Shown here piece by piece: positions 34,594 through 49,994 of a stretch of DNA of 64,000 nt. This DNA comes from Mesorhizobium sp. M4B.F.Ca.ET.058.02.1.1 (GTDB lineage Bacteria; Pseudomonadota; Alphaproteobacteria; Rhizobiales; Rhizobiaceae). The notes beneath the pieces were generated by a model that was not told where the DNA came from, did no database searches, and was given only the letters and a program-made list of their open reading frames with translations. The stretch spans positions 1,116,001-1,180,000 of the forward strand of contig NZ_CP034450.1 in NCBI RefSeq assembly GCF_003952505.1, in the 5' to 3' direction. Every line of letters begins with the position of its first letter. Within the stretch, counting starts at the first letter, position 1. The position numbers were made by a program, and so were the translations under genes.

Positions 34594-35757
34594 ATGGCAT
34601 TGCGGGGGACCAATCAGGAGTTCGGGCGGCCCTACAACCGGCGCATCGTTCTGGAGTCCATCCGCCTCAATGGGCCGATCGCCCGCGGCGATATCGCCAG
34701 GGGCGTCGGCCTCACCGTGCAGACCGTGTCGACCATCGTGCGCGAACTGGAGGAACAGGGCTACATCCTGTCGCTGCGCGAAGAGCCGAAAGGCCGCGGA
34801 CTGCCGCCGGCGACGCTCAGGATCAATCCCGAAGGCGGCTTTGCCGTCGGTATCCACCTCACCCCGCTCGGCATCGACGCGGCGCTGATCAACCTCAGCG
34901 GCGATGTCATCGAGAGCATGCACAGCGAGGCGCCGAACGTCACGCCCGATCACGCTTTCGACCAGATCGGCGCCATGGTCCGCGACCTGGCGGGACGGCG
35001 CGCCGGCGGACGCGTGCTTGGCGTCGGCATGGCGCTGCCCGGCCCGTTCGGCGTCGAATCGATGAGCTTCATCGGCCCGACGACCATGACCGGCTGGAAG
35101 GATGTGGCGCTGCGCGAGCGGCTGACGGCAGCCACGGGTTTGCCGGCCTTCTTCGAGACCGACATGGCGGCCGCGGCCATGGGCGAGCGGCTCTACGGCC
35201 TCGGCACCGGATATTCCGACTACTACTACCTCTATTTCGGCGTCGGCCTCGGCGGCGCCATGGTGCATGATGGCAGCGTGCTGCGCGGCGCCTGGGGCAA
35301 TGCCGGCGAGATCGGCCACATCCCGGTCGTGTTCGGCGGCGAGCCTTGCCCCTGCGGCAACCGGGGTTGTCTCGAACGCTATCTCTCGCTCGATGCGCGC
35401 GGACGCTGGCGCGGCAGCGACGACGACTGGGTAATCGAGATCGGTCCGGTTTTCCGCAACGCCATCACCATCATCGAGAACCTGTTCGACCCCGAGACGG
35501 TGGTCCTCGGCGGGCTGGCGCCGCCGGCGCTGCTCGAACGGTTGGCGGGAGCGGCGGAGCTGCCCAATTCGGTCTCGGCCCGCAAGGACCGCGCCACGCC
35601 GCGCATCGTCGTGGCGCGCGGCGGCCAGCATGCGGTGCTGCGCGGCGCGGCCGCACTTGCCGTTTCCGGGGTGCTGTCGCCGCGCTTCGGCCAGATCTTC
35701 ACCGCCAAGCGGCAGCGCGGCGGCGACCTCCTGAAAGGCGGAGACATCGCGGCATGA
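34594..35757 (+). CDS. ROK family transcriptional regulator
   Basis: A 387-residue repressor-type regulator: an N-terminal winged helix (RRIVLESIRLNGPIARGDIARGVGLTVQTVSTIVRELEEQGYI, about 16-60) followed by a ROK sugar-kinase-like domain with the zinc motif GGEPCPCGNRGCLERYLS near residue 250. It probably senses the sugar imported by the following ABC genes. Its stop overlaps the ATPase start (ATGA), so it is the first gene of the operon, as FrcR-like regulators are in rhizobia. Confidence 0.92.
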   Translation: MALRGTNQEFGRPYNRRIVLESIRLNGPIARGDIARGVGLTVQTVSTIVRELEEQGYILSLREEPKGRGLPPATLRINPEGGFAVGIHLTPLGIDAALINLSGDVIESMHSEAPNVTPDHAFDQIGAMVRDLAGRRAGGRVLGVGMALPGPFGVESMSFIGPTTMTGWKDVALRERLTAATGLPAFFETDMAAAAMGERLYGLGTGYSDYYYLYFGVGLGGAMVHDGSVLRGAWGNAGEIGHIPVVFGGEPCPCGNRGCLERYLSLDARGRWRGSDDDWVIEIGPVFRNAITIIENLFDPETVVLGGLAPPALLERLAGAAELPNSVSARKDRATPRIVVARGGQHAVLRGAAALAVSGVLSPRFGQIFTAKRQRGGDLLKGGDIAA

Positions 35758-36518
35758 GCGAACCCCTGCTGGTCCTCGACAACGTCACCAAGAACTACGG
35801 CGCGATCCAGGCGCTGAAAGGCATCAGCTTTTCGATCGGGCGCGGCGAGGTGGTGGCGCTTCTGGGTGACAACGGCGCCGGCAAGTCGACGCTGGTCAAG
35901 ATCATCGCCGGCGGGCTGGAGCCGACCTCCGGCCGCATGCTGTTCGAAGGCAAGGACTTCCTTGCCAAATCTCCGGCCGAGGCCAAGGCGGCGGGCATCG
36001 AGACGGTGTACCAGGACCTGTCGCTCTGCACCAATGTCGACGTGGTGGCGAATTTCTTCATGGGCCGCGAGATCACCCGCAAGGTGCTCGGCGTCCCCGT
36101 CCTCGACGAGCGCGCCATGGAGGCCGTGGTCGCCAAGGCGCTCGCCAATGCCGGCACCCGCATCCCGTCGCTGCGCACCAATGTCGAGCACCTTTCGGGT
36201 GGGCAGCGGCAAGCGATCGAACTCAACCGCTTCGTGCACTGGGGCGGCAAGCTGGTGCTGCTCGACGAGCCGTTCGCGGCGCTCGGCGTCGAGCAGACAC
36301 GACGCGGTCTCGACATGATCCGCCAGGTGGCGAACCAGGGCATCGGCGTCGTCATCATCACTCATATCATGCAGCAGGCCTTCCAGGTCGCCGACCGGAT
36401 CGTGGTGATCCGGCAAGGCGTCGTGGCGGGCGATGTCGCACGCAACAAGACAAGTCCCGACGCGGTGATCAACATGATCACCGGAGAGACGCTGGCCGGT
36501 GCCGGACCGGCGAGCTGA
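35754..36518 (+). CDS. Sugar ABC transporter ATP-binding protein, single-domain Frc type
   Basis: A 254-residue ATPase with Walker A GDNGAGKSTL near 38-47, Q-loop YQDLSL, signature LSGGQRQ, Walker B LVLLDEPFAALG and H-loop ITHIM. Carbohydrate importers of the RbsA group usually have two fused domains of about 500 residues; this single-domain form is the one seen in the rhizobial fructose transporter FrcA. It energises uptake with the permease and binding protein that follow. Confidence 0.93.
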   Translation: MSEPLLVLDNVTKNYGAIQALKGISFSIGRGEVVALLGDNGAGKSTLVKIIAGGLEPTSGRMLFEGKDFLAKSPAEAKAAGIETVYQDLSLCTNVDVVANFFMGREITRKVLGVPVLDERAMEAVVAKALANAGTRIPSLRTNVEHLSGGQRQAIELNRFVHWGGKLVLLDEPFAALGVEQTRRGLDMIRQVANQGIGVVIITHIMQQAFQVADRIVVIRQGVVAGDVARNKTSPDAVINMITGETLAGAGPAS

Positions 36519-36557
36519 GGGACAAATGAGGGGTCCGGCGCAAGAGGAGCGAACGAC

Positions 36558-37598
36558 ATGAAGAGAATACTTCTTTCCGTCTTCGGTTTCCTGGCACTGG
36601 CCATTGCCACGCTCACGCCGGCATTCGCCCAGTCCAAGGGCACCGTCTATTATCTGGTGCCGACATTGCTCGATGAGTTCCAGACCGGTTCGGTGACCGC
36701 GCTGGAACTGTTCCTCAAGCAGGTCGGCTACGACTTCAAATCGCTGAACGCCGACAACAAGACCGACGCCCAGCAATCGCAGATGAATGACGTCATCGCG
36801 CTGAAGCCCGCCGCGATCGTCCTTGCGGCGGTTGACTTCAACGCGCTGAAGCCGTCCGTCGAAGCGGCCCGCGCCGCCGGCATTCCGGTGGTCGAATTCG
36901 ACCGCCAGATCACCTCCACGCCGTCCGACTTCACCTCGGTCGCCGGCACGGTCGAGATCGGCTACGTCGCCGCCGACCAGGCCGAGAAGCTCCTGAAAGC
37001 GAAGAACGGCGCGGTGAAGGGCAAGATCCTGCAGGTGCTCGGCGATCCCGGCGATCCCTACACGCTCGACATCCAGAAGGGGTTCGAGGAGAAGATGAAG
37101 GCGTTCCCGGACGTCAAGATCATCTCGCTTCCGGCCATGCAGTGGGAAGCCAGCAACGCCGGCACCATCGTCGCCGACCAGATGCTCGCCAATCCCGATA
37201 TCGACCTGATCTTCAGCCATGCCGCGCATCTCTCGGTCGCCGGCGTCGCCTCGCTCGAGGCTGCCGGCAAGAAGCCCGGCGACGTCATGATGATGAGCTC
37301 GAACGGCGCACCGGTCGGTCTTGACCTGATCCGCAAGGGCTGGCTCAACGTCGAAGTCGAACAGCCGCTCTACGCCCAGGCCGCGGCTATCGCCGTGTTC
37401 ATGGACAAGATCGTCAAGAAGGAAGAGATCAAGCCCGGCGAATATGAGGTGCTTGGCCTGAAGTCGACGGTGACCAAGGAAGCCTGGGGCCCGAACATCA
37501 AGATCCCTGGCGCCGCCATCACCAAGGAGAACGTCGACAATCCGGCCTTCTGGGGCAACCAGAAGCCGCCGACCGAAACCGTAAAACCGGTCGAGTAA
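36558..37598 (+). CDS. Sugar ABC transporter periplasmic binding protein
   Basis: A 346-residue periplasmic binding protein of the ribose/fructose type (Peripla_BP_4). A signal peptide covers about residues 1-24 ([24 protein letters not shown]). Mature sequence shows VVEFDRQI, the paired QxGD-like NADQ... [21 protein letters not shown] and [22 protein letters not shown]. The ligand is probably a monosaccharide, but is not readable from sequence. It is followed by a strong hairpin before the permease gene. Confidence 0.93.
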
Positions 37599-37608
37599 CC
37601 ACCAGGAC

Positions 37609-37634
37609 CGCTCCGGGCTACCCGGCCCGGAGCG
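37609..37634 (+). terminator. Hairpin after the binding-protein gene
   Basis: A perfect 10-bp stem CGCTCCGGGC/GCCCGGAGCG with a 6-nt loop, 10 bp after the stop and without a T run. Such hairpins between binding protein and permease usually protect the 3' end of the upstream mRNA and raise binding-protein levels. Confidence 0.7.
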
Positions 37635-37712
37635 CCCCCTCAAAAGCGCCGCGCGCGTCGAAACGCGCGAAGCCGCAACACTGTCAAACACGCGCGCCAA
37701 CCGGATCAGCTC

Positions 37713-38708
37713 ATGAACCCCCGCACCCGCCATGCTCTCGAGCTCATTCTCGACAATCTCGTCTGGTTCATGCTGGTCTTCGTGCTGGTGGTGTTTTCCC
37801 TGCTCATTCCGAACTACTTCCAGCTCGGCATCTTCGCCAACATCATCGAGGCCTCCAGCGTGCTGGGCGTGATGTCGATCGGCCTGGCGCTGGTCATCAT
37901 CGCCGGCCACATGGACCTATCGGTCGAATCGGTCGCCGCGCTCAGCGCCATGGCGGTCGGCATCTTGTTCTGCTCGTCGGGCATCGGCCTCGGCGTGCAA
38001 CTGCACCCGCAATGGCTGATGGTCCCGGTTTCGCTGCTGCTCGCCGTCCTCGTCGGCGGCATCATCGGCGTCTTCAACGGCTTCCTGATCGTCAGGCTGA
38101 AGATGAGCGCCTTCATCATCACGCTGGCCTCCTACATCTGGGTGCGCGGCCTGGTGCTCGTCGTTTCCGGTGGCCGCTCGGCACAGGACCTGGCGCCGGC
38201 GATCCGCTGGTTCGGCATCCAGCGCCTGATCGGCCTGCCGCTCACCGCCTGGATCGCCATCGCCTGTTTCGTCGTCTTCTCGCTGATCATGGCCAAGACG
38301 CCGTTCGGCCGGCACCTGGTGATGATCGGCGGCAACGAGACGGCCACCTTCCGCGCCGGCATCCGCGTCAACCGCAATTTGATCATCGCCTTCGTGCTTG
38401 CCGGCGCCATCGCCGGTCTCGCCGGCTGGCTGCTGGCCATCCGCACCTCCGGCGCCACCGCCAATCTCGGCGTCGGGCTTTTGTTCAACGCCTTCGCCGC
38501 CGTCGTCATCGGCGGCGTCAGCCTGAAGGGCGGCGTCGGCACCCTGCCCGGCGTCTATGCCGGCGTGCTCTTGCTCTCGGCCATCAACACGGCGATCAAC
38601 CTGATGGGCCTGCCGGCCAATTTCACCCAGGTGATCCACGGCCTGCTGGTGCTGGCGGCGGTGCTGCTCGACGCCTTCAAGCAGACCATCCGGCAGAGGC
38701 TGGCATGA
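37713..38708 (+). CDS. Sugar ABC transporter permease, RbsC type
   Basis: A 331-residue polytopic membrane protein with about eight to ten hydrophobic helices (first at about 11-30, VLVFVLVVFSLLIP). It includes the family segments AGHMDLSVESVAALSAM and NETATFRAGIRVNRN, LFNAFAAVVIGGVSLKGGVGTLPG. It forms the channel of the importer. Its stop overlaps the SDR start (ATGA). Confidence 0.94.
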   Translation: MNPRTRHALELILDNLVWFMLVFVLVVFSLLIPNYFQLGIFANIIEASSVLGVMSIGLALVIIAGHMDLSVESVAALSAMAVGILFCSSGIGLGVQLHPQWLMVPVSLLLAVLVGGIIGVFNGFLIVRLKMSAFIITLASYIWVRGLVLVVSGGRSAQDLAPAIRWFGIQRLIGLPLTAWIAIACFVVFSLIMAKTPFGRHLVMIGGNETATFRAGIRVNRNLIIAFVLAGAIAGLAGWLLAIRTSGATANLGVGLLFNAFAAVVIGGVSLKGGVGTLPGVYAGVLLLSAINTAINLMGLPANFTQVIHGLLVLAAVLLDAFKQTIRQRLA

Positions 38709-39475
38709 CCGGCCGGCTGCAGGACAGGGTCGCGCTGATCGTCGGCAGCGCGCGCGGCATCGGCAAGGGCATCGCGCAGCGTTTCGCCGAAGAGGGCGCG
38801 AAGCTCGTGCTGGCCGATACCGAGGCCGAGGCCGGACAAGCCACCGCAAGCGAGTTCGGCGCCGCCTTCATCCGCACCGATATCTCGCAAATGGCCGAGG
38901 CCGAGGCCGCCGTGGCGCTGGCGCTCGAGCAGCATGGCCGACTCGACATCCTGGTCCAGAATGCCGGGATTTATCCCTGGCAGCTGATCGAGAACACCAG
39001 CCCGGAGGACTGGGATAGAGTGATGGCGGTCAACCTGCGCGGCTCCTTTAATGCCACACGGGCTGCGCTCGTGCCGATGAAGGCGCAGCGGCATGGCCGT
39101 ATGCTGTTCACCTCGTCGATCACCGGGCCGCATGTCACTAGCCCCGGCCACGGCCATTATTCGGCGACCAAGGCCGGAATCAACGGGCTGATCCGTGCCG
39201 CCGCGCTCGAATTCGCCGGCTACGGCATCACCGTCAACGGCGTCGAGCCCGGCAACATCCTCACCGAGGCGATCGAGCTGCATCGCGGTGCTGCCTATAT
39301 CCAGAACATGCAGGACTCCATACCGCTCGGACGGCTGGGCAGCCCGCGCGACGTCGCCAACGCCTTCCTGTTCCTCGCCTCTGACGACGCCAGCTACATC
39401 ACCGGCACGACCATCGTCGTCGACGGCGGACAGCTGCTGCCCGAAGGCAAGGATTTTCGCCTGCTGCCGCCGTGA
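38705..39475 (+). CDS. SDR family oxidoreductase
   Basis: A 256-residue short-chain dehydrogenase with the TGxxxGIG-like cofactor motif GSARGIGKGIA near residues 14-24, NAGIYPW near 89, and the catalytic Ser..Tyr-x-x-x-Lys (SSITGP, HYSATKAG). It has an acidic residue after strand 2 (ADTEAEAG), which favours NAD. It probably oxidises the imported sugar or polyol; translational coupling to the permease links it to the transporter. Confidence 0.9.
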   Translation: MTGRLQDRVALIVGSARGIGKGIAQRFAEEGAKLVLADTEAEAGQATASEFGAAFIRTDISQMAEAEAAVALALEQHGRLDILVQNAGIYPWQLIENTSPEDWDRVMAVNLRGSFNATRAALVPMKAQRHGRMLFTSSITGPHVTSPGHGHYSATKAGINGLIRAAALEFAGYGITVNGVEPGNILTEAIELHRGAAYIQNMQDSIPLGRLGSPRDVANAFLFLASDDASYITGTTIVVDGGQLLPEGKDFRLLPP

Positions 39476-39538: not shown

Positions 39539-39614
<76 letters not shown>

Positions 39615-39761
39615 GCTCCGGGCCGGACCTTTAAGCAGTTAGGGCAGGCTTCGCAAGGCCAAATGAACAGGCGCCGCGTTGGCCGCGTGGCGGTTTTCCA
39701 GCGGAAAGAGGCGGTTGTCAAAAAACCTTCTCCAGTTTGCTGATAAGGTGCTTTGCCGCGC

Positions 39762-39790
39762 TTGACACCCGGTGGCGAACCCCTTATCCA
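39762..39790 (+). promoter_or_regulatory. Promoter of tRNA-Asp
   Basis: A -35 box TTGACA (39762-39767) and -10-like TATCCA (39785-39790) are separated by 17 bp and lie 43 bp before the tRNA 5' end. Confidence 0.65.
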
Positions 39791-39832
39791 GCGGCCCAAC
39801 GACGAACACGGCTGACACGTGCTCGTCAGTGC

Positions 39833-39909
39833 GCGGGTGTAGCTCAGTCGGTTAGAGTGCCGGCCTGTCACGCCGGAGGTCGCGGGTTCGAGCCCCGTCA
39901 CTCGCGCCA
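39833..39909 (+). tRNA. tRNA-Asp(GTC)
   Basis: The acceptor GCGGGTG pairs with CACTCGC, the D-arm reads TAGCTCAGTCGGTTAGAGT, and the anticodon arm CCGGC-CTGTCAC-GCCGG gives anticodon GTC. The T-arm is CGCGGGTTCGAGCCCCG-like, and the discriminator G is followed by an encoded CCA. Confidence 0.97.
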
Positions 39910-40743: not shown

Positions 40744-41670
40744 TTAACCCCGCGCCAGCAGCGCCTCGACTTCCTGCAATGTCGGCATCGACGGAGCCGT
40801 GCCAGGACGGGTCACCGAAATGCCGGCGACGGCGCAGGCGAATCTCACCGCCTGCAGCGGCTCGACGCCTTTCGCCAGTGCCGCCGCGAGACCGCCGTTG
40901 AAGGCGTCGCCGGCGCCCGTTGTTTCCACAACCGGACCTGCACTGACGGCGCCGACGTGGTCGGAGCCGCTCTTCGTGTGCAGCAGCGCGCCCTTCTCGC
41001 CGAGCGTGATGATGACAGAACCGACACCCCTCGCCAGAAAACTGTCGGCGGCGCGGCGGGCATCGTCGATGGACGACACCTTGATGCCGGTCAGTTCCTC
41101 GGCCTCGGTCTCGTTGGGGGTGACGTAGTCGCAAAGCGCATAGATGCGGTCAGGCAGCCTCGCCGCCGGGGCCGGATTGAGGATGGTCGTCACCCCTGCC
41201 TCGCGCGCGATCTCCAGCGCCTTCAGCGCTGCCTCGATCGGCTGTTCGAGCTGGGTGATGAAGACGCCGGCCGAACGGATCAGGCCGGCATGGGCCTCGA
41301 TGTCGGCGGGCGAGATGAGCATCGCCGCGCCAGGGCTGACGATGATGGCATTGTTGCCGCTGGTCTCCTCGACGAAGATGTAGGCGGCACCCGTATAGCT
41401 CTCCGGCGTATCAATCACCGCCGCCTTCACGCCAGCCGCCTGCCAGGTGTGCTTGGCCATGTCGGCAAAGGCGTCGACGCCGAGCCGGGTCAGGAAGGTG
41501 GTGTCGGCGCCCAGTTTGCCGGCCGCGACCGCCTGGTTCGAGCCCTTGCCGCCCGGCCCCAGCTTGAAAGAGTTGCCGAGGATGGTCTCACCCATGCGCG
41601 GCTGGCGATCGGCGCGATAGGCGGTGTCGGCAACAAAGACGCCGAGGATGACGACAGGCTTCCCGGGCAT
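40744..41670 (-). CDS. Ribokinase-like PfkB sugar kinase
   Basis: A 308-residue PfkB-family kinase that phosphorylates ribose or a related sugar. It shows the N-terminal GGKGSNQAVAAGKLGA motif near residue 38, the TRLGVDAFADM segment, and the C-terminal anion hole TTGAGDAFNGG near residue 255. MPGKPVVILGVFV at 41670 is chosen. It follows the FucU/RbsD gene by 4 bp, so they act on the same sugar. Ribokinase is the closest label, but the substrate may differ. Confidence 0.9.
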   Translation of the reverse strand: MPGKPVVILGVFVADTAYRADRQPRMGETILGNSFKLGPGGKGSNQAVAAGKLGADTTFLTRLGVDAFADMAKHTWQAAGVKAAVIDTPESYTGAAYIFVEETSGNNAIIVSPGAAMLISPADIEAHAGLIRSAGVFITQLEQPIEAALKALEIAREAGVTTILNPAPAARLPDRIYALCDYVTPNETEAEELTGIKVSSIDDARRAADSFLARGVGSVIITLGEKGALLHTKSGSDHVGAVSAGPVVETTGAGDAFNGGLAAALAKGVEPLQAVRFACAVAGISVTRPGTAPSMPTLQEVEALLARG

Positions 41671-41674
41671 CGCC

Positions 41675-42127
41675 CTACTCCGCATCCGGCGGAATGACGC
41701 CCTTGCGGAAGGCGAAACAGCCATAGAAGCGGCGCTCGCCGGTCTGGATGACGCAATAGGCCTTCTTGGCGCGCTCGTAGAAGGCGTAGCGCTCGATCGA
41801 GATCATCGGCCAGGCCTTGCCCTCGGCCTTGTCGATCTCCTTCTGCACCTCCTTCTGCACCGGCGGGATCTCGTCAGGATTGCCGACGATCTCCATGCGG
41901 GCGGCGGCGTCGTCGACGAAGCTGTCCAGCGGATAGAGCGACAGCACCGCCTTCACCACCTCCGCCGCCGGCGCGTCGATGCGCAGCAGATAGCCGAGCT
42001 CCGTCTGGCGGGCGACCGAATCGGCCGGGAAATTGGTGTCGCAGATGATCAGGTCGTCGCCGTGGCCCATCGCCCGCAGTGCCTGGAGCACGTCGGCGTT
42101 GAGCAGCGGATTGATCCCTTTGAGCAT
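41675..42127 (-). CDS. RbsD/FucU family sugar mutarotase
   Basis: A 150-residue mutarotase or pyranase that interconverts anomers or ring forms of a sugar. MLKGINPLLNADVLQALRAMGHGDDLIICDTNFPADS carries the family's catalytic histidine (GHGD). This start is closer to FucU (L-fucose mutarotase) than to RbsD. It lies between the ATPase and kinase genes in one operon. Confidence 0.9.
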   Translation of the reverse strand: MLKGINPLLNADVLQALRAMGHGDDLIICDTNFPADSVARQTELGYLLRIDAPAAEVVKAVLSLYPLDSFVDDAAARMEIVGNPDEIPPVQKEVQKEIDKAEGKAWPMISIERYAFYERAKKAYCVIQTGERRFYGCFAFRKGVIPPDAE

Positions 42128-42157
42128 GGCAGTCCTCGCGAAAAATCTGTTGGGAAA

Positions 42158-43216
<1,059 letters not shown>

Positions 43217-43300
43217 CATCTCCCCTATCGTTTTCGGTGAAGCTAGCCATTGCCAACGGCAAGGGCAAGTCAGTATATTATAGATAAAAAGCCATTCCTG

Positions 43301-43329
43301 TTGACAAGGTAATCGATTACGCGAATAGT
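43301..43329 (+). promoter_or_regulatory. Promoter with LacI-type operator upstream of the CUT1 binding protein
   Basis: A perfect 12-bp palindrome GTAATCGATTAC (43309-43320) lies between a -35 box TTGACA (43301-43306) and a -10-like AATAGT (43324-43329). Its TAATCGATTA core matches LacI/GalR sites. A repressor here would block both divergent operons. Confidence 0.7.
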
Positions 43330-43493
43330 GGCGAGCGCAAAATCCGATGATCGGTGCTTTGCCGGAAATCGGATCTCCAAGCGACGCAGGGTGGGGTCCC
43401 ACGTCCCCGTATGGTATAGGAGAAACGCAGACGTTTCGGCGTCCGGTAGGTTGGCACGTCAAATTCACGGCTTTTGTTCTGGGAGGAATGTAG

Positions 43494-45158
43494 ATGAGAG
43501 TCGGTCTTTACGAAAAACTGGTCCGCGCGGGTGCCACCCGGCGTGACATTCTCAAGGGCGCGGCCAGCATGGCCGCGATTGCCGCGGCTTCAGGCGCCGG
43601 CCTCGGCGCACTGACCCGGCCGGCCGCCGCGGCCGACGATCTGCGCGCGCAGATCCTGCAGATTCCAGGTGTCGGCAAGGGTCAGCCGACGGACGCCGAT
43701 TTCCAGAAGGTGGGCGAGCTCTGCCTCGAAGCGACCAAGGCCAATGTCAAGGAAGGCGAGTTCGCCGGCGTCGAGCTCACCTTCATGGGCCTCAACAACC
43801 AGAACCTGCACAACGTTCTGTTCCGCGGCTTCCTGAAGCCGTGGGAGGCCTATACGGGCGCCAAGATCAGCTGGATCGACCTGGCGCAGGCCGACTACAA
43901 CGCCCGCCTGCAGCAGTCGATCGCCACCGGCACCGTCGACTTCGACATCATCGAGATGGGCGCGCCCTTCGAAGGCGATGTATGCGGCAAGGGCCTGACC
44001 TCCGAAATGCCGGACTGGGTCAAGAAGCAGATCGACTTCGACGACCTGGTCAACTACCTGAAGCCGCCGGTCGGCACCTGGAACGGCAAGCAGTACCGCG
44101 TCACCATCGACGGCGACGCGCACAACTTCAACTACCGCACCGACGTGTTCGCCGATGCCGATCTCGCCAAGGCCTGGAAAGAGAGCGGGGCGACGACCGA
44201 ATGGGGCGTGCCGAAGACCTGGCAGGAAGTGCAAGCCGTCACCAAGTTCCTCAAGGGCAAGCAGTTCAAGGGCCAGGATGTGTATGGCTATCTCGACGCG
44301 CCCAAGCCCTGGGGCGGCTTCGGCTTCTACTTCCTCGGCAGCCGCGCCAGCGCCTATGCCAAGCATCCCGACGACAAGGCCTGGCTATTCGATGCCGACA
44401 CGATGAAGCCGCGCATCAACAATCCGGCCTGGGTGCGGGCGATCCAGGACGTCATCGACGCCCTGCCCTCGGAGCCGCCAGACCAGATCAACGCCGATCC
44501 GAACACCACCGGCTTCCAGCAGTTCCTGGCCGGCACCGGGTCGATGATCCCGTGGTGGGGCGACATCGGCTCCAACGTCAAGACCAACGACTCGTCGGTC
44601 ATCGGCGACGTCACCGGCTTCTCGATCCTGCCCGGCTCGGACGACGTCTACAATTCGAAGACCGGCCAATGGGACAAGCTCGCCAGCGGCCCGAACTACT
44701 CGCCCAACTGCGCCTATCTCGGCTGGGGCGTCTATGTCATGGCCCGCGTCGACAGTGATGCGAAGAAGCAGAAGGCGGCATGGTCGGCGGCGGCACATCT
44801 CGGCGGCAAGGACCTGTCGCTCTGGTGCGCGGCCTATCCGTCGGGCTTCCAGCCCTACCGCAACAGCCATTTCAACATTCCAGAATGGGTGGCGGCCGGC
44901 TACGACGAGGCGTTCATCAGCTCCTACCTCAAGTCCGAGGGTGACAGCTACAATCATCCGAACGCGGCGATCGAGCCGCGTATCCCCGGCATCTTCCAGT
45001 ACTACAGCGCCGCCGAGGACATCCTGGCCAACACCTTCGCCGGCAAGATGAAGGCGCAGGAAGGCGCCGATGCCATCGCCGCCGCCTGGGAGAAGCTGAC
45101 CGACCAGATCGGCCGCGAAAACCAGATCAAGCTCTACAAAGCCTCGCTCGGCGTGTAG
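43494..45158 (+). CDS. Extracellular solute-binding protein with Tat signal
   Basis: A 554-residue family 1 (CUT1) binding protein. A twin-arginine-type leader is present (TRRDILKGAASMAAIAAASG, n-region with RR at about 14-15), so it is probably exported folded; cleavage follows the AAAAD region near residue 44. The mature protein shows the general SBP_bac_1 pattern (WISWIDLAQADYNARLQQSIATG, FNYRTDVFADADL, WYWAWWGD-like MIPWWGDIGSN). The ligand is probably a sugar or polyol. A hairpin follows before the permease genes. Confidence 0.92.
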   Translation: MRVGLYEKLVRAGATRRDILKGAASMAAIAAASGAGLGALTRPAAAADDLRAQILQIPGVGKGQPTDADFQKVGELCLEATKANVKEGEFAGVELTFMGLNNQNLHNVLFRGFLKPWEAYTGAKISWIDLAQADYNARLQQSIATGTVDFDIIEMGAPFEGDVCGKGLTSEMPDWVKKQIDFDDLVNYLKPPVGTWNGKQYRVTIDGDAHNFNYRTDVFADADLAKAWKESGATTEWGVPKTWQEVQAVTKFLKGKQFKGQDVYGYLDAPKPWGGFGFYFLGSRASAYAKHPDDKAWLFDADTMKPRINNPAWVRAIQDVIDALPSEPPDQINADPNTTGFQQFLAGTGSMIPWWGDIGSNVKTNDSSVIGDVTGFSILPGSDDVYNSKTGQWDKLASGPNYSPNCAYLGWGVYVMARVDSDAKKQKAAWSAAAHLGGKDLSLWCAAYPSGFQPYRNSHFNIPEWVAAGYDEAFISSYLKSEGDSYNHPNAAIEPRIPGIFQYYSAAEDILANTFAGKMKAQEGADAIAAAWEKLTDQIGRENQIKLYKASLGV

Positions 45159-45178
45159 CCTGATCGTATGATGAACCG

Positions 45179-45212
45179 GGGTCCGGCGACGCAAAGCCGC
45201 CGGACCCTGTTT
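45179..45212 (+). terminator. Hairpin/attenuator after the binding-protein gene
   Basis: A perfect 10-bp stem GGGTCCGGCG/CGCCGGACCC with a 9-nt loop is followed by TGTTTT. It is 20 bp past the binding-protein stop and may partly terminate transcription or protect the upstream mRNA. Confidence 0.8.
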
Positions 45213-45259
45213 TGACCGGACGGGCCGGTCGTAAGCTTTTGTATCGACGGACGGGACGC

Positions 45260-46381
45260 GTGGCTGACCAGACCTTGCCAACCAATGCATGGCCGGCAAA
45301 CGGCGTTCCAGCCGATCTGATCGCACCCGGCCGCAAGCGGCTCGGTTTCGCCCTGATGGCCGCGGCGACGCTCGGCCTGCTCGCCGTCATCGCGCTGCAG
45401 ATCCTCTACAAGACGGAAGTCACCACGCTCGGCTTCGATACCTGGCGGCCGATCGTCTATGCCTATGTGCTGTGGGGCGTGGCGCTGGGCATTGGGCAGG
45501 TGCTGACGCGCGGCGAGGACGGCCAGCGCGCGCTGTTCCTGCTTCCCGCATTGCTGTTCACCATTGCCATGGTGGTCTTCCCGACCCTGTTCGGCTTCTA
45601 CATCGCGCTGACCGACTGGAACCTCAGTTCCTTCTCCGGCCGCAAGTTCAACGGGCTCGACAATTTCTGGCAGATGCTGGCCGACCCCTACTACCGCAAC
45701 GCGCTGTTCAACATGGTACTGTATGTGCTCGCGGTGTTCGTCGAATATGTCATCGCCTTCGGCCTGGCGCTGCTCCTCAACGCGCAGATCCGCGCCCGCA
45801 AATTCTTCCGCGTCGTCTTCCTGATGCCGCTGATGTTGTCGCCGGTCGCGGTGTCGTGGATGATCGGCAAGTCGCTGATGGAGTATCGCTTCGGCCCGGC
45901 GGCGACGCTGGCGCGATACCTCGGCTGGGACAATCCCGCCTTCTTCTCCAACCCGATCACCGCCCGCATCTCGATCATGGTGCTGGATGCCTGGACCTTC
46001 ATCCCGTTCATGATGATCATGCTGCTTGCCGGCCTGCAGGCGATGTCGCGCGAGGTGCTTGAGGCGGCGCGCGTCGACGGCGCCACCGCCTGGCAGACCT
46101 TCTGGCAGGTCACTTTCCCACTGATGCTGCCGGTGTCGGTGACAGCGGTGATCCTGCGCATCATCTTCAAGCTGAAGCTGGCCGACATCATCATCACGGT
46201 GACGTCGGGCGGGCCCGGCGGCGCCACGGATTCGGTGTCGAGCTTCATCTACCGCGAGTACCGCGACCGCTCGAATGTCGGCTACGGCACGATGCTGGCC
46301 ATGGCCTATCTCGTCATCATCATCGTGTTCGTGACCTGGCTGCTGAAATTCGCCAGCCGCTTCGTGCGCAACGTCAACTGA
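45260..46381 (+). CDS. Sugar ABC transporter permease, MalF type
   Basis: A 373-residue inner-membrane permease with eight hydrophobic segments and a soluble N-terminus. The EAA loop EAARVDGATAWQTFWQVTFPLMLP contacts the ATPase. A TTG at 45212 would add 16 residues, but the GTG at 45260, preceded by GGACGGGAC, is the better start and avoids the preceding hairpin. It pairs with the MalG-type gene 12 bp on. Confidence 0.9.
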   Translation: MADQTLPTNAWPANGVPADLIAPGRKRLGFALMAAATLGLLAVIALQILYKTEVTTLGFDTWRPIVYAYVLWGVALGIGQVLTRGEDGQRALFLLPALLFTIAMVVFPTLFGFYIALTDWNLSSFSGRKFNGLDNFWQMLADPYYRNALFNMVLYVLAVFVEYVIAFGLALLLNAQIRARKFFRVVFLMPLMLSPVAVSWMIGKSLMEYRFGPAATLARYLGWDNPAFFSNPITARISIMVLDAWTFIPFMMIMLLAGLQAMSREVLEAARVDGATAWQTFWQVTFPLMLPVSVTAVILRIIFKLKLADIIITVTSGGPGGATDSVSSFIYREYRDRSNVGYGTMLAMAYLVIIIVFVTWLLKFASRFVRNVN

Positions 46382-46393
46382 GCGGCCGGCAAC

Positions 46394-47311
46394 ATGAGCG
46401 TCCAGACCACCGACTATTCCGTCTCCGAAATCAGCTCGCCGGCGAGCTTCCTGACCAGCCGCGTCTTCATCTATGGCGCGCTGGTGTTCTGGTCCTTCAT
46501 CTGCCTTTTCCCGATCTACTGGACGATCACGACGTCATTCAAATCGGCGGTCGACGTCACCCAGGGCCATCTGATCCCGTTCGTCGACTTCCAGCCTGAC
46601 TGGAAGGGCTGGCGCTCGCTCGGCCTGTCGCCGGACTCGATCACGCAGACCTCGACCGTGCGCGACGAGTTCTTCAAGCGCTTCATGAATTCGGTCATCG
46701 CCTCGGTCGGCGCATCCGGCCTCGCCATCATCATCGGCAGCCTCGCCGCCTACGGCCTGACCCGCTACCGCTACCACTTCGCCTGGTTCAAGAACGAGGA
46801 CATCTCCTTCTTCTTCCTGTCGCAGCTGATCCTGCCGCCGGTGGTGCTGGCGCTGCCCTTCCTGGTGCTCTACCGCGAGGTCGGCCTGCTCGATACGCGC
46901 GTCGGGCTGATCCTGCTCTACACGCTGATGGTGCTGCCGATCGTCATCTGGATCATGCGCGACCAGTTCAATTCGATCCCGGTCGAGCTCGAGGAGGCAG
47001 CGCTCGTCGACGGCCTGTCGATCTGGGGCGCCTTCTTCCGCATCGTCATGCCGATCGCGCTTCCCGGCATGGTCGCCGCCTTCATCCTGGCGATGGTGCT
47101 GTGCTGGAACGAGTATTTCTTCGCCGCGCTTTTGACCTCGACCGACGCCAAGACCATTCCCGTCATGGTGGCGAGCCAGACCGGGTCGCAAGGCATCAAC
47201 TGGTGGTCGATGGCCGCACTCGCCACCGCCGCCATCACGCCGCTTGCCGTCATCGGCATCCTTCTGGAACGCTACCTGATCATGGGCATGACGGCCGGCG
47301 CGGTGAAGTAG
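46394..47311 (+). CDS. Sugar ABC transporter permease, MalG type
   Basis: A 305-residue inner-membrane permease with six hydrophobic segments and the EAA loop EEAALVDGLSIWGAFFRIVMPIALPG near residue 200. It completes the importer with the MalF-type permease and the CUT1 binding protein. It ends at the edge of the palindromic element. Confidence 0.94.
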   Translation: MSVQTTDYSVSEISSPASFLTSRVFIYGALVFWSFICLFPIYWTITTSFKSAVDVTQGHLIPFVDFQPDWKGWRSLGLSPDSITQTSTVRDEFFKRFMNSVIASVGASGLAIIIGSLAAYGLTRYRYHFAWFKNEDISFFFLSQLILPPVVLALPFLVLYREVGLLDTRVGLILLYTLMVLPIVIWIMRDQFNSIPVELEEAALVDGLSIWGAFFRIVMPIALPGMVAAFILAMVLCWNEYFFAALLTSTDAKTIPVMVASQTGSQGINWWSMAALATAAITPLAVIGILLERYLIMGMTAGAVK

Positions 47312-47315
47312 CCGC

Positions 47316-47468
47316 CTCCCCTTCTCCCCTTGTGGGAGAAGGTGGATCGGCGTGTCAGCGCCGAGACGGATGAGGGGTGTTCCAGCGGAGTGAGACGTCG
47401 GCATTCCCTGGAGCACCCCTCATCCGTCGCCTTCGGCGACACCTTCTCCCACAAGGGGAGAAGGGGAG
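47316..47468. repeat. Long palindromic intergenic element
   Basis: Perfect 29-bp inverted arms (47316-47344 and 47440-47468) begin CTCCCCTTCTCCCCTTG. Nested arms at 47365-47384 and 47409-47428 pair 19 of 20 bp (GACGGATGAGGGG...). It fills the gap between convergent genes and resembles rhizobial intergenic mosaic or palindromic elements. The RNA would fold into a long hairpin able to terminate on both strands. Confidence 0.9.
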
Positions 47469-48212
47469 CTAGGCCCGCAGGATCGACCTTAAATGCTCGA
47501 GGATCATGGCGACGCCCTTCCTGCCCAGCTCGGCCGAAGCTTCCGGCGCGCTCGCCGTGTACCAGCTTGTATTGTCGGCGAGGCGGCCGGCGTCGACCGC
47601 TTCGGGGCACAGCGCCAGCATCAGCGAGGTTTCGCCGATGCCGGCATGGTCGAACGGGTACCGGCCGTTCATGGCGGCCGACATCAGCGGATGCACCTGG
47701 ACCCAATTGAAGAAGTTCTCGCCCTTGGCATGGCCTGCATAGTAGTCCGCCATCGCCTCTGAACCCCACCAGCCCTCGCCGCGCTCTTTTTCCAGAAAGC
47801 GGAAGATCGCTTGCCGGCCGGCGGCCTTGAAAGCGAGATCGGTCGGCATGCCGGCGGCGAAATTCTCGGTCTGGTGGTGGATGATGGCGTGGATGTTGCG
47901 AAAGCCGATGCGCAGCAGGCTGAAGAACAGCTCCTCGGCGAACGGCGCCAGCTGATTGCCGCCGACCTGCACCGAGCCGCTGCCTTCCGGCGGCGCCACC
48001 GCATAGCTCGCGGCGCCGTAGTAGAAGGGCGGCAGGATGACGATGTCGGCCTCCTTCTCGAACAGCTCGAGCGTCTTGACGACGGCCAGCGTGTCCATGC
48101 CGACGGCCATGTGCTCGCCATGGTACTCGAGCACGCCGAGCGGCAGAGCGACCGGCCAGTTCTCCGTGATCGCCTTGCGGATCTGGTGCGGCAGCATCAA
48201 TTCGTAACGCAT
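47469..48212 (-). CDS. Creatininase family protein
   Basis: A 247-residue metal-dependent amidohydrolase fold. The metal-binding segment LPLGVLEYHGEHMAVGMDT near residues 22-40 supplies Glu, His and Asp ligands, and FRNIHAIIHHQTENFAAG and HAGIGETSLMLALCP complete the pattern. True creatininase is only one member; others open cyclic amides or process formamides. It lies 4 bp after the SIS gene in a two-gene minus operon by the sugar importer. The substrate is unknown. Confidence 0.9.
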   Translation of the reverse strand: MRYELMLPHQIRKAITENWPVALPLGVLEYHGEHMAVGMDTLAVVKTLELFEKEADIVILPPFYYGAASYAVAPPEGSGSVQVGGNQLAPFAEELFFSLLRIGFRNIHAIIHHQTENFAAGMPTDLAFKAAGRQAIFRFLEKERGEGWWGSEAMADYYAGHAKGENFFNWVQVHPLMSAAMNGRYPFDHAGIGETSLMLALCPEAVDAGRLADNTSWYTASAPEASAELGRKGVAMILEHLRSILRA

Positions 48213-48216
48213 CGCC

Positions 48217-48783
48217 CTACTCCATATTGGTGTGGCGGGCGCGCATGGCCTCCGGCGAGGCACCGGTCAGCGCCTTGAGCTTCAGCACCATCACCTCGAA
48301 GAGCAGGAACAGCGCGCCCTCGAACAGCGACCCCATCGGCAAGACGGAGGTCTTTGCCGTGCCCTGGTCGCTGGCCATGGTCTGCGCCGGAATGAGCAAG
48401 GTGAAATCGGCGCGCTTCGTGGCGCTGCCCTCGGCCTCGGCGGTGAGCAGCAGCACCTTTGCGCCTGCGGCCCGGGCAACCTGCATCAGGGTCAGCACCG
48501 TGGTGGTCTCGCCCGGTCCGGAGCTGACCAGGAAGACACCGCCCTTGCCGAGCGGCGGTGTGGTCATGTCGCCGACCACCGATACCGACAGGCCGAGATG
48601 GTAGAGCCGCATGGCGAAGCCCTTGATCTGCAGCGCCTCGCGGCCGCAGCCATAGACGGCGATCTTGCCGGCGCCGGCGAGCAGGTCGCAGGCGGCGTCG
48701 ATGCGCGCCTCGTCCACCTTCGCCAACACGTCGCCGAGCTCGTTCAGCGCGATCGCGAACAGATCCGTGCCGGCGCCAGTCAT
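48217..48783 (-). CDS. SIS domain sugar isomerase (6-phospho-3-hexuloisomerase-like)
   Basis: A 188-residue single SIS-domain protein whose size and motifs (VYGCGREALQIKGFAMRLYHLG, SSGPGETTTVLTLMQVAR, ADFTLLIPA) match HxlB-type hexuloisomerases that convert a ketose phosphate. The partner HxlA is absent, so its substrate is probably another sugar phosphate. It precedes the creatininase-family gene and is divergent from the aldo/keto reductase. Confidence 0.85.
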   Translation of the reverse strand: MTGAGTDLFAIALNELGDVLAKVDEARIDAACDLLAGAGKIAVYGCGREALQIKGFAMRLYHLGLSVSVVGDMTTPPLGKGGVFLVSSGPGETTTVLTLMQVARAAGAKVLLLTAEAEGSATKRADFTLLIPAQTMASDQGTAKTSVLPMGSLFEGALFLLFEVMVLKLKALTGASPEAMRARHTNME

Positions 48784-48971
48784 GCGCTTTCCACCTTTGT
48801 GCGCGCCTCGAAACGCAGTGGCGATCCTTGCTTCACGCTTTCCCCGAACAGCTTGTTTTTGTTCATGCTATCACCGCGAAAATGCGCGTCCAACGGTCGT
48901 CAACGCTTTTGCTGTGCCACGGGCGTGATAGTGTCATGTCAGACAAATCAGCCCCAGGAAAACTCCACGAC

Positions 48972-49994
48972 ATGAAGACACGGCATTTCGACCGCATCGG
49001 CAATGGCGGCATCGACTTTACCGAGCTCGGCTTCGGCACGGCGCCGCTCGGCAATCTCTACCGCGCCGTCTCCGACGAGGACGCCCATGCCACGCTGGAA
49101 GCGGCCTGGAACACCGGCTGCCGCTACTTCGACACCGCGCCGCTCTATGGTCTCGGCCTGTCGGAAACCCGGCTCAACCCGTTCCTGCGCGGCAAGAAGC
49201 GCGACGACTATGTGCTGTCGAGCAAGGTCGGGCGCCTGATGCGCGCCTGCCCGCCGGATCAGCGCACCGGCATCGGCAAGTTCTTCGACACGCCGTCGCG
49301 CCAAGAGGTCTACGACTATAGCTATGACGGCGTCATGCGCTCCTTCGAGGCTTCGCTGGAACGCCTCGGCGTCGACCGCATCGACATCCTGTTCGTCCAC
49401 GACGTCGATATCTTCACCCATGGCAGCAAGGAGGCGTCCGACCGTCGCATCGAGGAGTTCATGTCCTCCGGCTATTACGGGCTGCTTTCGCTGCGCGACC
49501 AGGGCGTGATCAAGGCCTTCGGCGGCGGCATCAATGAATGGCAGGTCTGTGAGGCGCTGGCCGAGCGCGGCGATTTCGACCTTTTCCTGCTGGCCGGGCG
49601 CTACACGCTGCTGGAGCAGGAGGCTTTGCAATCCTTCCTGCCGCTCTGCCAAAAGCGCGGCATCGGCATCGTGCTCGGCGGCCCCTACAATTCCGGCATC
49701 CTGGCGACGGGGCCGAAGCCGGGAGCCTTCTATGATTATTCGGAGGCGCCGAAGGAGGTGCTCGATCGCGTGGCGCGCATCGAGGCGGTCTGCAAGCGCC
49801 ACAGGGTGCGCCTGATCGAGGCGGCGCTGCAGTTCCCGCTGCAGCATCCGTCCGTCGTGTCGGTAATCCCCGGCGGTCAACGGCCGGCCGAGGTCGAAAG
49901 CAACCGCGCGCTGCTCGACGTCAAGCTGCCCGCCGCCCTGTGGGTCGACCTGAAGCAGGAAGGGCTGCTGCGCGCGGACGCGCCGACGGGCTGA
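48972..49994 (+). CDS. Aldo/keto reductase, aldose 1-dehydrogenase type
   Basis: A 340-residue NAD(P)-dependent oxidoreductase of the (alpha/beta)8 AKR fold. The catalytic tetrad is FDTAPLYG (Asp, Tyr near 60), SSKVGRL (Lys) and LFVHDVD (His). It is closest to D-threo-aldose/L-fucose 1-dehydrogenases. The ATG at 48972 follows AGGAAA; an ATG at 48936 is less likely. With the mutarotase and kinase it suggests oxidation of an imported aldose. Confidence 0.9.
   Translation: MKTRHFDRIGNGGIDFTELGFGTAPLGNLYRAVSDEDAHATLEAAWNTGCRYFDTAPLYGLGLSETRLNPFLRGKKRDDYVLSSKVGRLMRACPPDQRTGIGKFFDTPSRQEVYDYSYDGVMRSFEASLERLGVDRIDILFVHDVDIFTHGSKEASDRRIEEFMSSGYYGLLSLRDQGVIKAFGGGINEWQVCEALAERGDFDLFLLAGRYTLLEQEALQSFLPLCQKRGIGIVLGGPYNSGILATGPKPGAFYDYSEAPKEVLDRVARIEAVCKRHRVRLIEAALQFPLQHPSVVSVIPGGQRPAEVESNRALLDVKLPAALWVDLKQEGLLRADAPTG

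Follow-up and report, generated by a model that had tools for sequence, protein, structure and literature searches.

A conserved Mesorhizobium sugar-import locus with a creatininase-family hydrolase, very probably reduced from a larger ancestral locus

Several described systems share parts with the locus considered here, a nine-gene cluster at positions 40744-49994 of a 64,000-nucleotide stretch of DNA (the window) from Mesorhizobium sp. M4B.F.Ca.ET.058.02.1.1 (contig NZ_CP034450.1, positions 1,116,001 to 1,180,000), whose 6.46 Mb genome is a single contig. The E. coli sgc operon (sgcXBCQAER) encodes a phosphotransferase system (PTS), the sugar of which is called unknown (PMC5797941). The BtpA/SgcQ and M42 families are common to sgc and to larger relatives of this locus. 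The two differ in that sgc uses a PTS, while an ATP-binding cassette (ABC) importer is found here, together with an FGGY kinase in the larger form. No creatininase, SIS or aldo-keto reductase (AKR) gene appears among those listed for sgc. BtpA and M42, in turn, were not found in the genome carrying the window, and its locus is not of the sgc type. In S. meliloti, the CUT2 binding protein SMc02774 binds L-fucose with a Kd of 3.6 nM (PMC3454389). In the locus to which it belongs, SMc02772-SMc02775, a sugar ABC importer likewise adjoins a putative sugar dehydrogenase, and an L-fucose configuration is suggested here too; however, its importer is of the CUT2 type, whereas ours is CUT1 with an AKR as the dehydrogenase candidate, and the likeness is one of description. 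Finally, a plasmid locus of Rhizobium and Agrobacterium carries the same CUT1 importer but adds a TIM-barrel isomerase and a CUT2 importer, with no creatininase, SIS or AKR listed.

The first-pass annotation had placed the nine genes in an unassigned carbohydrate pathway. The open reading frame list, family searches and start codons locate every gene that it named where it had put them, and comparison of the neighbourhood in other genomes establishes that the genes co-occur elsewhere. A described pathway with this set was not found in a narrow search of open-licence literature, which is weak evidence for the designation. The apparent novelty lies in the resemblance of these genes to a trimmed version of a larger locus that has sgc-type parts, and we consider it highly probable that the cluster has the anatomy set out below and was reduced from a larger ancestral locus.

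Conservation of the locus beside hupB and lon

The named loci used for comparison are the best 80 of 197 found, and 78 of them are labelled Mesorhizobium. The full order lon-hupB-AKR-SIS-creatininase-permB-permA-SBP-ugpC-fucU-rbsK, in which SBP stands for the substrate-binding protein, is present in 70 of the 80; one more lacks only lon, five lack only SIS, and four are short records of 5370-11512 bases that end before the far end of the cluster. The median ratio of nonsynonymous to synonymous substitution (dN/dS) relative to the window is 0.10-0.15 for eight cluster genes and 0.22 for SIS, compared with 0.03 for hupB and 0.06 for lon; with medians of 0.10-0.22, the nine genes are under purifying selection. 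The grouping is more than chance would give. A close relative of the creatininase protein (86-100% identity) occurs in 20 of 25 genomes of the same genus, the window's own counted, and in none of 16 genomes of other families, three of which gave a weak match. Family-wide, 7 of 151 genomes, in 6 genera, carry a close relative (71-100%) and 19 more have weak matches only. At an E-value of 1e-40, matches are found in 13 of 397 genomes across the order (7 from the window's own genus and 6 from a single genus in a different family) and in 8 of 398 across the phylum, i.e., the same 7 as in the order draw plus one genome of the same class from outside the order (G841); these draws overlap. Most of the Mesorhizobium examined keep this sugar-import and catabolic locus beside hupB-lon.

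The cluster is arranged in runs: rbsK, fucU and ugpC on the minus strand, SBP, permA and permB on the plus strand, the creatininase and SIS genes on the minus strand, and the AKR gene on the plus strand. A gap of 4 bases separates the SIS stop codon from the creatininase ATG, and one of equal length the fucU stop codon from the ribokinase start; because of these short gaps each pair is probably co-translated. No regulator was found among the nine genes by the gene list and a Pfam search. The borders are formed by tRNA-Val and tRNA-Asp (39539-39909) on one side and by hupB and lon, named by eye, on the other. Beyond the tRNA genes, a separate CUT2-type sugar operon can be recognised by eye at 34594-39475, with a ROK-like regulator, an ATPase, a binding protein (36558-37598), a permease and then a short-chain dehydrogenase. 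Membership of the cluster in this operon was rejected, since the two tRNA genes stand between them.

Larger relatives and reduction in Mesorhizobium

Twelve loci from other GTDB genera were compared (L058-L062 and L162-L168); L062 and L166 begin close to the end of a contig, and L060 is cut off by one. At an identity of at least 55%, an FGGY kinase is found in 8 of them, M42 in 8, BtpA/SgcQ in 6, SIS in 4, AKR in 3 and the binding protein in 7, L059 being the query for FGGY, M42 and BtpA and hence counted by construction. A xylose-isomerase-like TIM barrel (at least 44% identity) is present in 6 of the 12, a count that includes L168 as the source of the query; the model that fits it best is xylose isomerase, at 93.4 of 447 bits. 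In L059 and L168, the latter from outside the order, the arrangement is creatininase-SIS-FGGY-M42-BtpA, followed by the AKR gene on the opposite strand, while L058 has creatininase-FGGY-M42-BtpA and L060 creatininase-SIS-M42-BtpA. L061 keeps the importer, FucU, RbsK, creatininase and AKR, and gave no match for SIS, FGGY, M42 or BtpA. Judged by persistence in L061 and in the five loci lacking only SIS, the core consists of the importer, FucU, RbsK, creatininase and AKR. The creatininase gene also stands in L164 with none of the other genes, which counts against a fixed partnership. Near the creatininase locus of L163, L165, L166 and L167, all from a single genus in a different family, lies the gene for a large and conserved protein, 591 aa long in three of the four, that resembles, by eye, sulfoacetaldehyde acetyltransferase. 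Relatives of the FGGY kinase on Vibrio (44% identity) and Deinococcus (42%) plasmids were set aside, the gene sets there having no creatininase.

In Mesorhizobium, none of the 80 named loci has a match to FGGY, M42 or BtpA at an E-value of 1e-5, and the best FGGY matches in the window's genome are only 26-29% identical. BtpA is present at other sites in the genus, in 64 of 119 genomes at an E-value of 0.001 (62 above the family cut-off). Eighteen such places comprise 12 with a distant protein (27-33% to the L059 BtpA), 5 with a closer one (59-74%) and 1 where the threshold applied gave none; BtpA, M42 and FGGY occur together (59-74%) in 3 of the 18 (L206, L207 and L212). At these three places the full set is accompanied by a DeoR/GlpR-like regulator. 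Genes for a RhaS-like binding protein and a DhaK-like protein also lie in L207, and L212 has a DhaL-like gene, these last three being under their cut-offs. Among nine genomes examined, the three with the full set (G005, G432 and G967) have neither the creatininase cluster nor a close creatininase, and one in which only a 73% BtpA was seen (G944) has one. On a midpoint-rooted tree of 22 creatininase proteins, the FGGY/M42/BtpA label requires 4 changes, which we infer to be losses; separate losses in Mesorhizobium and in L061, rather than gain by transfer, are likely from these protein comparisons. The tree itself weighs against this history, as 10 of its 19 inner branches are drawn open and the branch leading to L168 is long.

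Reduction appears to continue with the SIS gene (48217..48783, minus strand). The first-pass annotation had called its product a SIS isomerase, which can be refined to the 6-phospho-3-hexuloisomerase type: it scores 156.4 bits against the HxlB model TIGR03127, just under the cut-off of 160, and its nearest solved chain is YckF (1m3s), aligned over nearly the whole length. An intact SIS gene is missing in 6 of the 80 loci. By eye, both ends are kept and the middle is deleted in three of them (L130, L132 and L137), scraps of both ends persist in L104, and little beyond the first codons is left in L126 and L128. The dN/dS of SIS exceeds that of the creatininase in 74 of 74 loci and that of the AKR in 73 of 74, the weakest contrast being with fucU (56 of 71); the p-values of these contrasts are overstated, as the loci are related. 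The SIS gene is probably on its way to loss in Mesorhizobium and, given its absence in intact form and its highest dN/dS, should not be central to the pathway there. Relatives of the SIS protein on four other plasmids had no creatininase relative within the stretch read (tblastn and gene annotations, two of them empty).

These data bear directly on a sugar-phosphate route, in which the ribokinase and the SIS protein would convert a hexose first to a 3-ketose phosphate and from there to fructose 6-phosphate, much like the latter half of the ribulose monophosphate (RuMP) pathway. The SIS protein falls only 3.6 bits short of the hexuloisomerase cut-off and aligns almost end to end with YckF, yet its decay and its higher dN/dS argue against a central role, and the partner enzyme of the HxlA-HxlB pathway is missing, the best HxlA match in the genome reaching 25.6 of 200 bits. 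The RuMP route proper is rejected on this last ground, and the sugar-phosphate route as a whole is very unlikely.

The distribution of the genes also bears on whether they form one unit. The importer, FucU and RbsK might serve one sugar and the creatininase, SIS and AKR be an unrelated neighbouring set, as is suggested by six annotated plasmid regions of Rhizobium, Agrobacterium, Allorhizobium and Phyllobacterium (of 144 matching records). In all six, the same importer (SBP 76-78% identical) is accompanied by FucU, by a CUT2-type importer and by a sugar isomerase of the TIM-barrel kind; a ribokinase is listed in five, and no creatininase is listed within 8-10 kb in the PLSDB gene tables, which are incomplete; nor was a creatininase relative of more than 29% identity found on any plasmid. 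However, Mesorhizobium, L059 and L061 carry the two gene sets side by side, as L060 and L168 largely do, and in L162, L163, L165 and L167 importer genes lie beside the creatininase gene without FucU. Two separate neighbouring modules seem unlikely.

The creatininase-family hydrolase

The gene at 47469..48212 (minus strand) encodes a protein of 247 aa that belongs to the creatininase superfamily (PF02633, 91.7 bits, cut-off 31.3). Three curated models all remain below their cut-offs, with 65.2 of 235 bits for creatininase (TIGR04448), 41.6 of 245 for IolN (NF041098) and 36.6 of 172 for MftE (TIGR03964), and identity with known creatininase, with IolN (3-dehydro-scyllo-inosose hydrolase) or with MftE was rejected on these equivalog cut-offs. 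The predicted structure has a mean confidence (pLDDT) of 90.1, and its best fold matches are creatininases, with a TMq of about 0.70, a probability of 1.00 and a root-mean-square deviation (rmsd) of about 5; all 26 solved fold matches at an E-value of 0.001 are creatininase-family proteins (TMq 0.60-0.71, 15-21% identity, rmsd 4.7-9.2). In the alignment with creatininase, E29, H31 and D40 fall opposite residues 34, 36 and 45 (3a6j numbering); we take the metal ligands of creatininase to be Glu34, His36, Asp45, His120 and Glu122. In a 40-row alignment, H31 and D40 are invariant and E29 is conserved in at least 90% of rows. The second motif of the subgroup, into which the counterparts of His120 and Glu122 fall, is HHQTENF in place of GHYEN, with E116 invariant in the same rows, as are H189 and E194 in a second aligned stretch.

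A search with PADLOC for an anti-phage role gave no match for the creatininase or SIS protein. A plasmid origin was rejected, as the creatininase protein matches just 6 plasmid records, at 25-29% identity. The window's own genome holds a second creatininase-family gene at 234965-238690 (L001), with 226 bits to PF02633. No work joining creatininase with hexuloisomerase, Mesorhizobium or sugar importers was found in the open-licence literature, outside which most subscription journals lie, and nothing there on IolN or BtpA was judged relevant.

In most loci the creatininase gene adjoins importer genes, whatever else is lost, and this fits an enzyme acting early on whatever is taken up. The first-pass annotation suggested the opening of an amide or lactam-like intermediate, perhaps of an aminated or N-glycosylated sugar; in that case the enzyme would cleave the C-N bond of an N-substituted sugar or sugar lactam. 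In the ancestral locus, the M42 metallopeptidase-type protein would then be a second amide-cleaving step. The creatininase family offers a precedent, and M42 neighbours stand in 8 of the 12 loci of other genera, one being the query. E. coli is reported to have three M42 proteins, and in the same study two tested M42 proteins, supposed to be cellulases, proved to be aminopeptidases (PMC3511314). On the other hand, the creatininase model falls far short at 65.2 bits, no amidotransferase, deaminase or amino-acid enzyme is found among the nine genes, Mesorhizobium loci keep the creatininase though M42 is absent, and the creatininase family is itself the sole pointer among the cluster genes. Overall, N-sugar cleavage is unlikely.

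IolN of Thermotoga is a C-C bond hydrolase that acts on a cyclic keto intermediate, and a similar hydrolysis of an intermediate from a cyclitol-like substrate can be imagined here. The weak match to the IolN model is consistent with it, as is a dehydrogenase neighbouring the L062 creatininase that reaches 144.9 of 450 bits against IolM (scyllo-inosose dehydrogenase), although L-idonate 5-dehydrogenase is the model that it matches best (176.7 of 469). Because the IolN cut-off of 245 is missed, no inositol dehydrogenase is present among the nine genes, and both FucU and the aldose-type reductase speak for reducing sugars, IolN-like action is highly improbable.

Importer, sugar enzymes and a tentative oxidative route

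The cluster contains a CUT1 importer, composed of a MalK/UgpC-type ATPase (ugpC, 42158..43216, minus strand; NF008653, 507.5 bits, cut-off 432), a binding protein of 554 aa (43494..45158, plus strand) and two permeases with PF00528 domains, permA (45212..46381, plus strand, 62.6 bits, start codon uncertain) and permB (46394..47311, plus strand, 55.8 bits). The binding protein gave no Pfam or NCBIfam match at an E-value of 0.001 and no PDB sequence match, and is named from relatives that carry the name sugar ABC transporter substrate-binding protein; its leader is twin-arginine-like by eye (ATRRDILKG), and its predicted model is poor (pLDDT 41.0). The FucU-type mutarotase (41675..42127, minus strand; PF05025) scores 91.3 bits against the L-fucose mutarotase model NF011949 (cut-off 141) and 40.9 against D-ribose pyranase (cut-off 93), below both, and its nearest solved chain is 2ob5 (Atu2016; 205 bits). 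The ribokinase of the PfkB family (rbsK, 40744..41670, minus strand, ATG at 41670; PF00294) exceeds the cut-off of TIGR02152 (310.3 against 299.65 bits) and stays under that of a second model, NF008353 (280.8 of 341). In three loci (L170, L179 and L182), a Rhizobium/Agrobacterium form of the importer has two FucU/RbsD-type genes around one transporter.

Between the divergent ugpC and SBP genes, a consensus scan, which found 4 promoter-like sites versus 1.8 in shuffles, places a promoter-like TTGACA-17-AATAGT (43301..43329, plus strand). Its spacer contains the perfect palindrome GTAATCGATTAC at 43309-43320, detected by a palindrome scan. The palindrome recurs in 25 of the 80 named loci; the other 55 lack its core, 4 of them not reaching the place. 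In loci that reach the place but lack the palindrome, the promoter boxes are the same and enclose a spacer of quite another sequence, and the operator has possibly changed between lineages. A search of the genome with the 13-base pattern GGTAATCGATTAC gave a single occurrence, at this locus, and thus led to no regulator or regulon.

The gene at 48972..49994 (plus strand; PF00248, 159.8 bits) had been called an aldose dehydrogenase. The gene is present, but the family has to be corrected to AKR, the five nearest solved relatives all being L-galactose dehydrogenases (nearest chain 9w6y, 110.8 bits). Asp, Tyr, Lys and His, which we take to be the usual AKR tetrad, are present in the alignment by eye, and the protein is a candidate L-galactose / D-threo-aldose 1-dehydrogenase. 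With FucU closer to L-fucose mutarotase and the AKR near L-galactose dehydrogenases, two independent pointers would weakly indicate the same configuration.

The chain of reactions that we favour, tentatively, is an oxidative one, every chemical step of which we infer from protein families. The CUT1 importer would bring an aldose or aldose derivative into the cell, the FucU-type mutarotase would provide the correct anomer, and the AKR would oxidise C1 to give a lactone; because this AKR is of the L-galactose dehydrogenase (D-threo-aldose) kind, and as FucU suggests, the sugar would then be L-galacto/L-fuco or D-arabino configured. The creatininase-family metallohydrolase might act as a lactonase that opens the ring, by analogy with cyclic creatinine. 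The ribokinase may act on a side branch or further downstream, phosphorylating a sugar there, and later steps would be encoded outside the cluster.

Several points tell against this oxidative chain, and as a whole, chemistry included, it is possible at best. We know of no creatininase-family lactonase, and a narrow search of open-licence literature found nothing joining creatininase with lactonase and sugar. No aldonate dehydratase or other downstream enzyme is among the cluster genes, and the ribokinase is without a clear place in an oxidative route. Four loci (L062, L163, L165 and L167) have the creatininase without this AKR, so that the two are not strictly tied. Moreover, the register of HHQTENF differs between two HMMER alignments, and the residue replacing Glu122 is ambiguous.

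A broader reading joins this route with the history of the locus. In an undescribed pathway, the ancestral form would couple an aldose isomerase-like TIM barrel, an FGGY kinase, SIS, BtpA/SgcQ, M42 and creatininase, and Mesorhizobium would have swapped the kinase-BtpA-M42 branch for the oxidative AKR and creatininase and now be discarding SIS. This scenario is less likely than not.

Sugar loci with unknown substrates are common in rhizobia, which limits the surprise of finding another. To our knowledge, no sugar role is known for BtpA/SgcQ, for sugar-linked M42 proteins or for this creatininase subgroup. If the ancestral locus served one pathway, all three would be tied to one importer, and Mesorhizobium strains could be used to find its substrate. 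Solving that pathway would assign a metabolic role to the sugar-linked members of the BtpA and M42 families, among them SgcQ and SgcX of E. coli, the latter of which we take to be an M42 protein. The locus would also stand as an example of the stepwise paring of a catabolic operon inside one genus.

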